Source: Mucilaginibacter rubeus
GTDB taxonomy: Bacteria; Bacteroidota; Bacteroidia; Sphingobacteriales; Sphingobacteriaceae
NCBI RefSeq assembly: GCF_014643835.1
Contig: NZ_BMKD01000005.1
Coordinates: 186,001 to 250,000, forward strand
Direction: 5' to 3'
DNA: 64,000 nucleotides
Position 1 is the first letter of the stretch, and the number at the start of each line of letters is the position of its first letter. The notes under the pieces were generated by a model, which worked only from the letters and a program-made list of their open reading frames with translations, did no database searches and was not told where the DNA came from. Positions 59,150-62,684 of this stretch are shown here, one piece after another. Position numbers and translations under genes: made by a program.

Positions 59150-59493
59150 ATAATTAATATGCTGGTGCTGTGTCGACAGTATCAATAGGGATCAGCCGAT
59201 AGTTAATTTATTAACGAAACGGATGACAAGATACTTTCCGCTGGGACAAAACGTTTTGGCCAAAAACCTTACAAGTCTATTTTTCACGCAGATTGGGATT
59301 GGAACATATCAATAAAACTTACGGAAAGTGTTGTGCCGGTGTAGTACCCATAAAAAACAGGCTTTTAGAAATTAATCTAAAAGCCTGGTAATCGATATGT
59401 GGAGAATATCAGAGTGTTCAAAACCTCTAAAACAACAGCCAAACGCCGTTTTGAGGCTTTTACGAAAAAACCCGGTTACTTTTGCCGTCCGTT
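59150..59493. other. Gene-free interval with terminator and tRNA-end-like word
   Basis: 344 bases between convergent genes. It contains the minus-strand terminator (59352-59387) and, at 59398-59415, TGTGGAGAATATCAGAGT, which resembles the complement of a tRNA 3' end but is not followed by a foldable tRNA. A 30-codon frame at 59223 has no support. Confidence 0.45.
59352..59387 (-). terminator. Intrinsic terminator of the RtcB-PrfH operon
   Basis: Perfect 12-bp stem CAGGCTTTTAGA / TCTAAAAGCCTG (59358-59369 and 59376-59387). Read on the minus strand it is followed by six T. It lies 106 bases beyond the prfH stop. Confidence 0.85.
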
Positions 59494-60108
59494 TTAAATT
59501 ACTGCCCTGATGGTTTTAACCGGATTACCACGCTCCAGGGCGTTATGCTCCTGCCATTGACTTTGCTGCTGCTCTACCAATTTTTCTGTTTGCCAGATCA
59601 GTATTTTGGCTTCCAGCCGGGCTAAACAAAGCTTCTTGTTTTCGAGCTGCGACCGGCTATCCATTGCCATAACTTGCAGCCCCGATGGTAAATGTGTTCC
59701 CCGAACCGCGGTTTCCACCTTGTTTACATTTTGACCGCCTGGCCCCGACGAACGACAGGTTTCCAGCTTTACATCTTTAGGGTTCCATTGCATCAGTTCT
59801 TTTACGTCAAACACAGATACGCCTACAAACCAGTTTTTACGTTTATGGTATTTTCGATACGGACTTTGCGCTATCCATTGTATAGTGCCGGTCCATTCTT
59901 TTACAAAGGCATCCAGGTTATTACCTGTAGCCATCATCGTAGCGGATAGTAACGTGCCGTTTAACCCGCCGGCTTTGTTTTCCAGTACTTCAAGCTGAAT
60001 GCCTTGCTGTTTGGCTTGCTTCAACATCAGGTTTTGTACGCGGGCTACAACCCGGCAGCATTCTGCCGGGCCTTTGCCTGAAGTGATTTGTATTATCATC
60101 TTTTTCAT
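59494..60108 (-). CDS. prfH: Peptide chain release factor-like protein PrfH
   Basis: 204 residues from ATG 60108 (an overlapping GTG at 60111 is possible). It is a short class I release-factor paralogue that keeps the peptidyl-tRNA hydrolysis motif G124-G-Q126 in SSGPGGQNVNKVETAVR and a basic C-terminal helix, but lacks the codon-recognition domains of PrfA/PrfB. Known: PrfH genes travel with rtcB, and in E. coli the pair rescues and repairs ribosomes cleaved in the 16S rRNA decoding centre. Here prfH follows rtcB with two bases between stop and ATG, matching that arrangement. Confidence 0.93.
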   Translation of the reverse strand: MKKMIIQITSGKGPAECCRVVARVQNLMLKQAKQQGIQLEVLENKAGGLNGTLLSATMMATGNNLDAFVKEWTGTIQWIAQSPYRKYHKRKNWFVGVSVFDVKELMQWNPKDVKLETCRSSGPGGQNVNKVETAVRGTHLPSGLQVMAMDSRSQLENKKLCLARLEAKILIWQTEKLVEQQQSQWQEHNALERGNPVKTIRAVI

Positions 60109-60110
60109 CA

Positions 60111-61511
60111 CTACTCCTTATTCATTCGAACGATACGTGGATAAAACTTGCCCTGGATATCAACCAGGTCGCTTTGCACCGCCATTACGGCCTCGATATC
60201 CTTATAAGCTAAGGGGTTCTCTTCAACGGTACCGCCAATTAAGGTTACACCTGCATTGGTCAGCAACTTTTTCATGGCCGAAACCGTCATGCTGTCCTTA
60301 GCCTTTTGCCTGCTCATGGCCCGGCCCGCACCGTGCGATGCAGAGTATAATGCATCATTTGTGCCTTTGCCCGATACCAGGTAAGCCGGTGTGGTCATAC
60401 TGCCGGGGATAATACCCAGCTCGCCTTGATGCGCCGGTGTCGCGCCTTTGCGATGGATAATAACATCCCGGCCGTCAGCCAATCGATCTTTCCAGGCAAA
60501 GTTGTGGTGGTTCTCTACCACGTGTAAAGCTTTCAAGCCTAAAGCCTTTAAAAGGTTGGCGTGTATGCGCTGGTGACAAGCTTTGGCGTAATCTCCGGCC
60601 AGGGTCATGGTTAACCAATATTCCTGGCCCGCCTCACTGTCCATATCCAACCAGGCCAGTTGCTGTGCGTGGCGCGGAAGTTTGCAGGTATTCATGGCTA
60701 ACTGCGTGTACTGCCTCGCTATTGCCGAGCCTAAACCCCGGCTGCCTGAATGTGTTAACAAGGCCGTGTACTTTTTAGCGGGTAAACCTAAAGCGTTATC
60801 AGCCAAAAGTTCGATCTCGCCAAACTCCACAAAGTGGTTTCCGTTGCCCGAGGTGCCTAATTGCCGTACCGCCTTACTCCGCAGCGGTTTCAAAAATGGG
60901 ACCTCATCAAATACCCTACTATCCAGCACTTCATGCTCCTGCCTTACATCCAGGCCTCCTTCCATACCAAAATGAGTATGATTTTTTAAGGCTTGTTTAA
61001 TTTGATATTCAAACCGTTTTAGAAAACCGTCGCTCTCATCGATAATTGACAGCGCCATGCGGCAGCCAATATCCATACCTACAGCATAGGGAATTACCGC
61101 GTTGTTTGCAGCGAGTACCCCACCAATAGGCAAACCAAAACCCATGTGCGCGTCAGGCATTAATGCACCTTGAACGCTTACAGGCAGCATATTAGCCAGC
61201 TCCATTTGTTTTTTGGCCGATTGCTCAATGCCCTTGCCACCGTAAGTTTTGCAGTACACCGGTTCATCACGCAGTGCAAACGTTTTAAAGGATGGTGCAT
61301 CCGTTTTGCCAATTACCTTTTCGGCTATCTTGCTTGTTAACTCATCATCCAGAAATGCTTCCGGATCGTTCTTAATATCCACCAATAGGTCCAGTAGCTG
61401 CTGCTTACTATGGTGCTTGAAATTTTTAGAGATTATACCAATAACCAGGCTTCGCAGCTGATCATTATGATAACCTATTTTACTTAAATCTTTTGTTCTT
61501 AAATTGCCCAT
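60111..61511 (-). CDS. rtcB: RNA ligase RtcB (PrfH-associated)
   Basis: 466 residues. GTP-dependent ligase joining 2',3'-cyclic phosphate (3'-phosphate) and 5'-hydroxyl RNA ends. Mn-binding residues are visible in MPDAHMGFGLPIG (D120, H122), VGMDIGCRM (C150), GNGNHFVEFGEIE and HSGSRGLG. The guanylylated His is in SASHGAGRAMSR (about 390). All key residues are present, so it should be active. Flanked tightly by prfH and, 5 bases upstream, a basic protein of unknown function. No RtcR regulator or RtcA cyclase is in the window. Confidence 0.95.
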   Translation of the reverse strand: MGNLRTKDLSKIGYHNDQLRSLVIGIISKNFKHHSKQQLLDLLVDIKNDPEAFLDDELTSKIAEKVIGKTDAPSFKTFALRDEPVYCKTYGGKGIEQSAKKQMELANMLPVSVQGALMPDAHMGFGLPIGGVLAANNAVIPYAVGMDIGCRMALSIIDESDGFLKRFEYQIKQALKNHTHFGMEGGLDVRQEHEVLDSRVFDEVPFLKPLRSKAVRQLGTSGNGNHFVEFGEIELLADNALGLPAKKYTALLTHSGSRGLGSAIARQYTQLAMNTCKLPRHAQQLAWLDMDSEAGQEYWLTMTLAGDYAKACHQRIHANLLKALGLKALHVVENHHNFAWKDRLADGRDVIIHRKGATPAHQGELGIIPGSMTTPAYLVSGKGTNDALYSASHGAGRAMSRQKAKDSMTVSAMKKLLTNAGVTLIGGTVEENPLAYKDIEAVMAVQSDLVDIQGKFYPRIVRMNKE

Positions 61512-61516
61512 GTGGG

Positions 61517-62248
61517 TTATGTTTCTAATTCCAGGTAACCTTCTTTACAGGCATACCTTGGTATGTTTTTAAATTTGTTAATGTATTTTGGCCGGTCGTT
61601 AAACTCATCTTTCCAGCGATAGCTCCGGCCACGGGTTAACAGGTTAATGCGCGGCCACAAGTGGTTGTTATCAATGTGTTCGTCTATCCACGCTAATTCC
61701 CTTTCAATATCCGCATCGATCATTTTAGTATGTGTTACCATATGCGGCGCTACCTTTAGCACATATCGCCAGGGCTCGGCAAACACGTATTTCACCTCGG
61801 TACGGTAGGTTTTAACATCAAAAGTTTCAACACGGGTAAAGCAAGTCTTTTCCTGTTCGGTTAAATTGATCCTGTTGATATCCCAGCTATGCTGCGACAA
61901 TTCACGCAGTATTTGCGGTTTTGCCTGGTACACATAACGTTGTTTGCGTCGTTTTTTCCGTTTGAAGGATTTGTCCTGATGATATTCAACCGTGTTAATT
62001 TTCATTAGCAAGGCTTCATAAAAGTCATTCCCCGGGTTATGCTTCTGGTCATCCCGCAACACAAAAAAACGTTTCCAGCCACGTTGATACGGGTGTTCAA
62101 GCGCAACCATAGGCAAAAGCCTTCTTTGCTCCCTTAGTTCATCGCGCCGTTTGTGAAGCTGTATCAGTTGTTTATCCCGACCGGTTTTAACGAGCCGCCT
62201 TTTGCGCCGTGCCGATTTGATACAGCGCGGCCATTCATGTGTGTTCAT
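61517..62248 (-). CDS. Uncharacterised highly basic protein linked to RtcB-PrfH
   Basis: 243 residues from ATG 62248 (GTG at 62251 also possible). No signal peptide or membrane segment. The N-terminus is extremely basic (IKSARRKRRLVKTGRDKQLIQLHKRRDELREQRR), with a second cluster at about 94-105 (KRKKRRKQR), aromatic positions (HPYQRGWKRFFVLRDDQ) and a charged C-terminus (TRGRSYRWKDEFNDRPKYI). I recognise no domain; the composition suggests RNA or ribosome binding. It is the first gene of the operon, 5 bases from rtcB, and so a candidate third component of the repair system. Confidence 0.8.
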   Translation of the reverse strand: MNTHEWPRCIKSARRKRRLVKTGRDKQLIQLHKRRDELREQRRLLPMVALEHPYQRGWKRFFVLRDDQKHNPGNDFYEALLMKINTVEYHQDKSFKRKKRRKQRYVYQAKPQILRELSQHSWDINRINLTEQEKTCFTRVETFDVKTYRTEVKYVFAEPWRYVLKVAPHMVTHTKMIDADIERELAWIDEHIDNNHLWPRINLLTRGRSYRWKDEFNDRPKYINKFKNIPRYACKEGYLELET

Positions 62249-62351
62249 CACACTTTCATTTAATTTTCCTGAATTTGATTTTTGATCTCAGTTCGTCCTT
62301 GAGTAAGGATATACCCTTGTTAGAGCGCTCAAAAAATCCAGTGAATTTGGG

Positions 62352-62432
62352 GGCAGGCAAAATAATGCACAGGTTACTGACGCAACCGTTTAATTATTTA
62401 ATAAAATACAGGGTTTGCCTGCCTGATCAGGC
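62352..62432. promoter_or_regulatory. Inverted repeat and palindrome upstream of the RtcB-PrfH operon
   Basis: GGCAGGCAAA and its exact complement 52 bases apart, the second overlapping the perfect 12-bp palindrome GCCTGATCAGGC. About 100-180 bases upstream of the basic-protein start. Either an operator region or a leftover element end. Confidence 0.35.
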
Positions 62433-62649
62433 AATGAGCGAAAGGGGCGATATGTAGATTTGCTCTGTCATGATTCCTTGATATTTAAAGATTAACAAAT
62501 CAGGAATTGGATGCAAAGATAGAATTTAATTCGAAATATCAAGAAGCGGCTATTTAGTTTGCAGGTTTGGGCCGCAAAGTAGCTACAATTTCCATCGCCA
62601 GCGCTTGTTGTTTATGATTTAAACTGCGCGGATCTATTACCATAGGAAA

Positions 62650-62684
62650 GCACTGGCTTCGTCGGTATCTGACAAAGCCAGTGC
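62650..62684 (-). terminator. Hairpin terminator of the alginate-lyase-like gene
   Basis: GCACTGGCTT / AAGCCAGTGC stem (62650-62659 and 62675-62684), extended by GTC/GAC after one mismatch, with a short CTTTCC tail on the minus strand. It lies 23 bases after the stop. Confidence 0.55.

Follow-up and report, generated by a model that had tools for sequence, protein, structure and literature searches.

What is a strongly basic protein of no recognised family doing at the head of an operon for ribosome rescue and RNA repair, and what switches such an operon on? We addressed this in a 64,000-nucleotide stretch of the Mucilaginibacter rubeus genome (RefSeq assembly GCF_014643835.1, contig NZ_BMKD01000005.1, positions 186,001 to 250,000; hereafter the window), in which the gene for this protein, here called X, precedes those for the RNA ligase RtcB and the release factor PrfH. 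On balance we favour a reading in which the rescue-and-repair operon (RtcB, PrfH and an optional basic X) is switched by a leader RNA that would report on translation, the leader being a likelier sensor than X. Earlier papers describe the rtcB-prfH pair as such (PMC1586002) and repair of colicin-E3-cut 16S ribosomal RNA (rRNA) by PrfH with RtcB2 (PMC9223846). In Pseudomonas aeruginosa the leader peptide PA5471.1 is reported to control armZ, which is rtcB-like and lies next to prfH (PA5470): a terminator can form once the leader is fully translated, whilst ribosome stalling prevents this (PMC12057347, PMC13041342), and particular codons are reported to matter in one mutant background (PMC13041342).

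A tight operon of X, RtcB and PrfH

X, RtcB and PrfH form one tight minus-strand operon. Calling of open reading frames (ORFs) gave the three genes in that order with gaps of 5 and 2 bases, the shorter lying between rtcB and the prfH directly behind it, and a terminator scan placed a hairpin downstream of prfH, which bears out the layout proposed by a first-pass annotation of the sequence. X could alternatively start at a GTG at 62251. PrfH passes the cut-off of its family model and has the GGQ motif, and RtcB shows, by eye, DIGC, GNGNHF, HSGSRG, ENHHN, HRKGA and SHGAGR, which we take to be the motif set of the ligase, in line with the annotation, which had described the key residues of both enzymes as intact. 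RtcB of the window has ~95 residues upstream of the segment matching the NCBIfam RtcB models and, as it scores 149.5 bits against TIGR03073, the model for PrfH partners, under a cut-off of 271.8, it is filed under PF01139 only.

A conserved leader RNA with competing helices

The DNA upstream of X is strongly conserved in alignment and comprises a promoter-like TATCTTTG, a hairpin (H1), a short ORF directly behind it and more blocks (Table 1). The promoter-like assignment follows what we take to be the Bacteroidota consensus, and many relatives have a TAnnTT(T/C)G motif immediately upstream of the leader. The same leader stands upstream of X-rtcB-prfH, of X-less rtcB-prfH and of solo X. Its ORF has 7-15 codons in leaders of the window type, and the ATG is invariant in 46 of 46 aligned leaders. 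No credible match to the window leader was found in Rfam. A hairpin at the X start codon, promising in the alignment, was dropped when pairings beside the start codon proved no better than shuffles.

Fifty-nine leaders were extracted by script (seven loci were not picked up) and 46 were used in pair counts, leaving out 13 that were near copies (L001, L019, L023, L033), divergent (L026, L079, L080, L147, L161, L181), or cut or misplaced (L150, L153, L157). A structure combining H1, the helix H34 and two further helices, P1 and P3, has 87.4% of its cells paired across the 46 leaders, with both-sided changes at 21 of 38 pairs, a count that none of 500 shuffles attains. Of the five measures taken, four are higher than in any shuffle and the fifth is reached by 3 of 500, and its covariation score is 0.196 versus 0.061-0.099 in slid versions, where pairing falls to 38-50%. 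H23, which competes with H34 for columns the two have in common, shows both-sided changes at two of five pairs, and the changed-pair count of the H23 structure as a whole is reached by 19 of 500 shuffles. On sequence evidence, the leader ORF ends where two helices that exclude each other could form, both with both-sided changes. We treat this covariation as support, not proof, because the shuffles leave relatedness in. A run of at least four T follows H34 in 34 of the 46 leaders, compared with 14.9 ± 3.2 in mononucleotide shuffles.

The leader is also tied to the operon by its genomic distribution. A covariance model (R1) of the first 101 leader positions, built from 45 of the 46 leaders (without L070), matches the window at 62408-62507 with an E-value of 2e-25, the window belonging to the training set. 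Across 251 genomes of the window's family R1 found 46 sites in 44 genomes, many of them training members. Of the 44 leader-bearing genomes, 41 carry prfH or X; the remaining sites are two in G663 (leader plus RtcB, at contig ends), one at a decayed rtcB-prfH in G502 and one at RtcB plus a TPR-like gene in G539, and a second site in G508 precedes a TPR-like gene alone. All 46 matches are at rtcB, X or TPR genes of the operon or its relics, as placed by set membership, comparison of coordinates by eye and inspection of the G502, G539, G663 and second G508 sites. At L312:1268-1983 a TPR-like gene, of a kind that elsewhere ends these operons, stands alone after the conserved leader, with neither rtcB nor prfH.

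Table 1. Features of the operon and its leader, in window coordinates (arms of H34 and P1, and P3, counted by hand).
Feature	Position	Strand	Description and basis
Promoter-like element	62514..62542	-	TTG (62542), 18 bases, TATCTTTG (62521-62514); sequence
Leader RNA	62281..62507	-	Conserved and structured; alignment, covariation
Leader ORF	62427..62471	-	MTEQIYISPLSLIA*, 14 codons plus stop; start right past the H1 3' arm, stop at the H23 5' arm
P1, 5' arm	62435..62453	-	Long-range helix; arm within the leader ORF
H34, 5' arm	62414..62423	-	GGCAGGCAAA; first part also pairs with the leader ORF end (H23)
H34, 3' arm	62352..62361	-	TTTTTT ~15 bases further on
P1, 3' arm	62310..62331	-	TGAGCG..AAGGGTATAT
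P3	62296..62309	-	Covarying hairpin, TCCTT..AAGGA
X	61517..62248	-	ORF, 243 aa, start ATG; leading gene, for a strongly basic accessory protein
RtcB RNA ligase	60111..61511	-	466 aa; PF01139, 7e-76
PrfH release factor	59494..60108	-	204 aa; TIGR03072, 242 bits, cut-off 166.65
Terminator-like hairpin	59358..59387	-	Hairpin plus six T, downstream of prfH; terminator scan

The terminator scan also found a strong 14-pair terminator-like hairpin at 62650-62684, 3' of the gene preceding the operon, which may insulate the operon's own promoter.

An unrelated leader on the same operon

Flavobacterium-like relatives, and some Sphingobacterium-group genomes of the window's family, carry an operon leader of different sequence with the layout of an attenuator. 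Its ORF has 24-28 codons with LRG or LRA near the end, and helices can form between element 1 (before the start codon) and element 2 (at the ORF end), between 2 and 3, and between 3 and 4, with a T-run after element 4. By pattern search, 20 of 22 Flavobacterium-like loci have all three parts, a leader ORF, an antiterminator and a terminator; a variant is visible in L176 and none in L083. Nine of 13 further family prfH loci fit the pattern, one without a recognised ORF, and on reading L318 and L320 show this leader too, with the ORF present and the terminator degraded in L313 and L319. Matched changes preserve the pairing of the elements: most loci have GGCTT/AAGCC and others GGTTT/AAACC, and L164 has lost one base on both sides. 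The exact pattern has a single occurrence, located at the operon, in each of nine of ten operon-bearing genomes, and the reversed control gave 0. Rfam returned only a transfer RNA and a Flavo-1 RNA on nine relatives' loci, neither within the leader; the latter, at L084:102-243, lies near a Flavobacterium-like operon and scores exactly at the gathering threshold.

X accompanies RtcB in Bacteroidota

Scanning 84,980 species, with a single genome per species, gave 138 relatives, of which the best 80 are the named X loci counted here; three further samples comprise 199 relatives, the 251 family genomes and 296 genomes of the phylum, X being found by profile search in the last two. All 80 are Bacteroidota by title, including Mucilaginibacter, Pedobacter, Sphingobacterium, Flavobacterium, Taibaiella, Chitinophagaceae and others. 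The first-pass annotation had suggested asking whether X homologues lie beside prfH-rtcB across Bacteroidota, and they do: RtcB is directly downstream of X in 70 of the 80 and a PrfH match follows too in 59 (one, L204, a decayed fragment). In 11 loci RtcB occurs without detected PrfH (L240 ends at a contig edge and L203 retains a 20-codon prfH stub), in 10 neither was seen (L212 and L249 end at contig edges), and PrfH without RtcB was found in none of the 80, though RtcB is broken in L232. Since RtcB-only loci occur and PrfH-only loci do not, it is RtcB, and not PrfH as such, that X accompanies. The proposed link of X to RtcB-PrfH is thus supported in part and needs amending in its terms: the partner is RtcB rather than PrfH, and X is dispensable and survives alone.

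X is present in 32 of the 199 relatives, and in 28 of 30 loci inspected RtcB and the beginning of PrfH lie immediately downstream (RtcB is broken in L022), the exceptions being L026, where a transposase-like ORF adjoins X, and L030, where X is decayed. In the phylum sample X was matched in 10 of 296 genomes, and prfH scores over its cut-off in nine of these versus 22 of 296 overall, more than chance would give (Fisher 1e-10, kinship uncorrected), the tenth X match being weak and inside a longer ORF. In the family sample X was matched in 28 of 251 genomes, no fewer than four of these matches being weak or to remnants, and 12 of the 28 carry prfH (p 0.002), including G053 with an X stub only and G653 with X and prfH on separate contigs; the frequency of solo X and of X-RtcB in this family makes the association modest, and it is tighter in the phylum sample. 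Across these searches the X matches in G547 and G420 are weak and within longer ORFs, and those in G628, G587 and G053 are remnants or fragments.

Several loci depart from the standard arrangement. Genome G065 has a second X-RtcB copy (L033:6484-8690) with prfH detectable over ~21 codons only, and in G080, a genome without any RtcB match, X lies beside a transposase-like ORF (L031:6335-7018) and is likely a relic. L076 and L078 hold X-RtcB without PrfH among genes that by eye resemble a WYL regulator, slipin and a nucleotidyltransferase, and X may serve another RtcB repair set there too. L083:2001-8204 has two very divergent X-like genes in tandem, then RtcB, PrfH and, by eye, ZnR-, NTase- and TPR-like genes.

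X is constrained, fast-evolving and optional

Window X contains 30 Arg and 24 Lys, with a net charge of ~+21 and an isoelectric point (pI) of 9.95, and pI is 9.55-10.13 across 82 X locus entries longer than 200 aa (some loci entered twice). The absence of a recognisable domain in this leading protein held up in our searches: no family passed a curated cut-off in Pfam or NCBIfam, the PDB gave no sequence match and one weak profile match (E-value 0.14), PHROGs gave none and PADLOC two weak matches, each to a single member. Searching 47 X members against Pfam, PHROGs and PADLOC gave scattered weak matches, with no family common to more than four members. Neither of the findings that the first-pass annotation took as refuting its reading was borne out: X is linked to RtcB-PrfH throughout Bacteroidota and no known housekeeping family was matched. 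The X of Mucilaginibacter gossypii Gh-67 is 97% identical to that of the window. Over 83 usable of 91 pairs X has a median ratio of nonsynonymous to synonymous substitution rates (dN/dS) of 0.164, versus 0.045 for RtcB over 70 of 91 pairs, so X looks like a real gene, constrained yet evolving faster than RtcB.

X is also optional. A quick RtcB tree (77 proteins, 42 accompanied by X and 35 not) requires 17 X changes versus 25.5 in shuffles, at least eight of the 17 being forced by well-supported branches. Directly before rtcB, 3 of the 35 X-less upstream regions (L038, L149, L156) retain a C-terminal X stub, which is evidence that X was lost there; two weaker X matches elsewhere within such regions were set aside. 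Among 40 loci with upstream DNA the X profile matches four that have prfH (L178, L179, L180, L182) and L183, which is X-RtcB without PrfH. L084, with X, and L172, without, are similar until ~45 bases upstream of the X start. Solo X occurs in six genomes of genus g69, five intact and one frame-shifted, which have no prfH over the cut-off and no RtcB within the 11 kb covered, with RtcB elsewhere in each. Within this genus RtcB is found anywhere in the genome in 6 of 6 solo-X genomes versus 23 of 42 X-less ones, a suggestive comparison of few and related genomes that we did not use.

A proposed switch that would sense failing translation

Because armZ is reportedly under PA5471.1 control in Pseudomonas, we read both Bacteroidota leaders, by analogy, as ribosome-stall attenuators; the sequences argue strongly for such a switch in the Flavobacterium-like leader and more weakly in the window type. 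The window leader ORF ends at an arm of H23, the hairpin that competes with the downstream helix H34. A ribosome reading the ORF fully would let the downstream helix form and the operon stay off, and stalled or damaged ribosomes would let the competing hairpin form and the operon be expressed. PrfH would release the stalled complex and RtcB would then seal the cut rRNA. The operon and its conservation, the leader and its covariation, and a linkage that is exclusive in the sample searched are observed; we infer the direction of the switch, its inducing signal and the role of X. The most likely binding target of X, the first protein encoded, would be rRNA or the damaged subunit. A helper of this kind, probably binding rRNA in support of RtcB, is our best guess for X because of its charge, its RtcB company and its persistence behind the leader. 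A bolder version, in which at least two unrelated leader RNA families turn failure of the cell's own ribosomes into repair-kit expression in Bacteroidota, and X is a new, fast-evolving factor for recognising the damaged subunit and taking RtcB to the cut, is, taken as a whole, rather unlikely.

Several observations weigh against the stall switch or against a fixed place for X in it. The count of both-sided changes is weak alone because slid structures still retain 12-18 such pairs. The terminator scan found no terminator in the window leader, whose T-run is offset from the stem by ~15 bases, and a run of four T after H34 is missing from 12 of the 46 leaders. The Flavobacterium-like leader peptide is not conserved, with a ratio of nonsynonymous to synonymous polymorphism (pN/pS) of 0.74 versus 0.66 and 0.97 in the other frames, which points to sensing of ribosome progress and not of one amino acid. 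The Pseudomonas model itself is one for which a cited passage asks more proof of attenuation (PMC12057347). Of the 48 family genomes with prfH, 36 have no X match and 12 have one, and no X homologue of known function emerged from the searches.

Other explanations of the leader and of X

The leader could instead be a structured cis-regulator that ribosomes do not read, such as a metabolite or protein sensor or an mRNA stability element, with the short ORF incidental. This would account for the unconserved peptide, for core bases that persist even as a stop codon (ACATATAGCCC in L161 and L181) and for a window type without a clear terminator, but it leaves unexplained the invariant ATG of the aligned leaders and an ORF end at or before the competing hairpin, and the unrelated Flavobacterium-like leaders on the same operon have a classical attenuator layout; we consider it unlikely, with a chance worth keeping in mind. 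A smaller chance attaches to X as an autoregulator that binds the leader RNA of its own operon, like some ribosomal proteins. X leads the operon and is strongly basic. With leader types of the named loci assigned by text pattern, the leader is retained by eight of the ten named X genes that lack RtcB (two at contig ends), and the covariance model finds it in the other two as well, strongly in L224 and weakly in L236 (E-value 0.036). However, the same leader precedes X-less operons (e.g. L148-L159, L184-L186), and the X of Flavobacterium-like operons stands behind an unrelated leader, both of which make this quite unlikely.

Least probable of those considered is that X acts as a toxin, or confers immunity to a ribotoxin, and is accompanied by rtcB-prfH. 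A conflict-type setting, described in PMC6514570, fits with the patchy presence of X and its faster evolution than RtcB, but X is intact in five g69 genomes without prfH and without adjoining RtcB, it has few invariant polar residues of the sort that would suggest a catalytic site, and no toxin or defence family match is common to X members.

Relation to known systems

The window operon resembles the RtcB2-PrfH operon of E. coli and others in having rtcB directly before prfH, in tight coupling and in a PrfH over the TIGR03072 cut-off; it differs in the extra leading X, in an RtcB below the TIGR03073 cut-off and in its conserved leader RNA, the comparison with E. coli covering the genes. With PA5471.1-armZ-PA5470 it shares a short leader ORF, an rtcB-like gene, adjacent prfH and proposed alternative hairpins by which transcription passes when ribosomes stall. 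That system belongs to another phylum, and the likeness is one of layout; ArmZ also derepresses the MexXY pump, and no canonical terminator was found in the window leader.

Accessory genes around RFH-RtcB were already noted in 2019, including a highly charged protein without homologues (PMC6514570). X may be this protein, by match of description only, and is thus perhaps not new as a neighbour of the pair. The 'RFR' accessory set of Burroughs and Aravind (2019) has in common with X a highly charged protein, beside RFH-RtcB, for which no homologues were detectable, and the set also has TPR, NTase and ZnR genes, apparently seen, by eye, in L083 and L084. Section 8 of that paper makes no mention of solo copies, losses or a leader. 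We found no report of Bacteroidota leaders of rtcB-prfH operons in the open-licence literature searched; what appears to be new here is that rtcB-prfH operons of a second phylum have predicted attenuator-like control, through leaders of two unrelated sequence types.

Implications

Control of rtcB-prfH operons outside Pseudomonas was not found described in the literature searched. The leader provides a sequence handle for finding further members, in that a gene that retains it after loss of rtcB and prfH, such as X or the gene of the TPR-like protein, is a candidate for this response, and X becomes a concrete target as a candidate ribosome-damage-recognition factor. Leaders of this operon that are unrelated in sequence share a similar logic, which suggests a general principle, in which a tiny ORF would test the ribosome and the repair enzymes would be made only upon failure.

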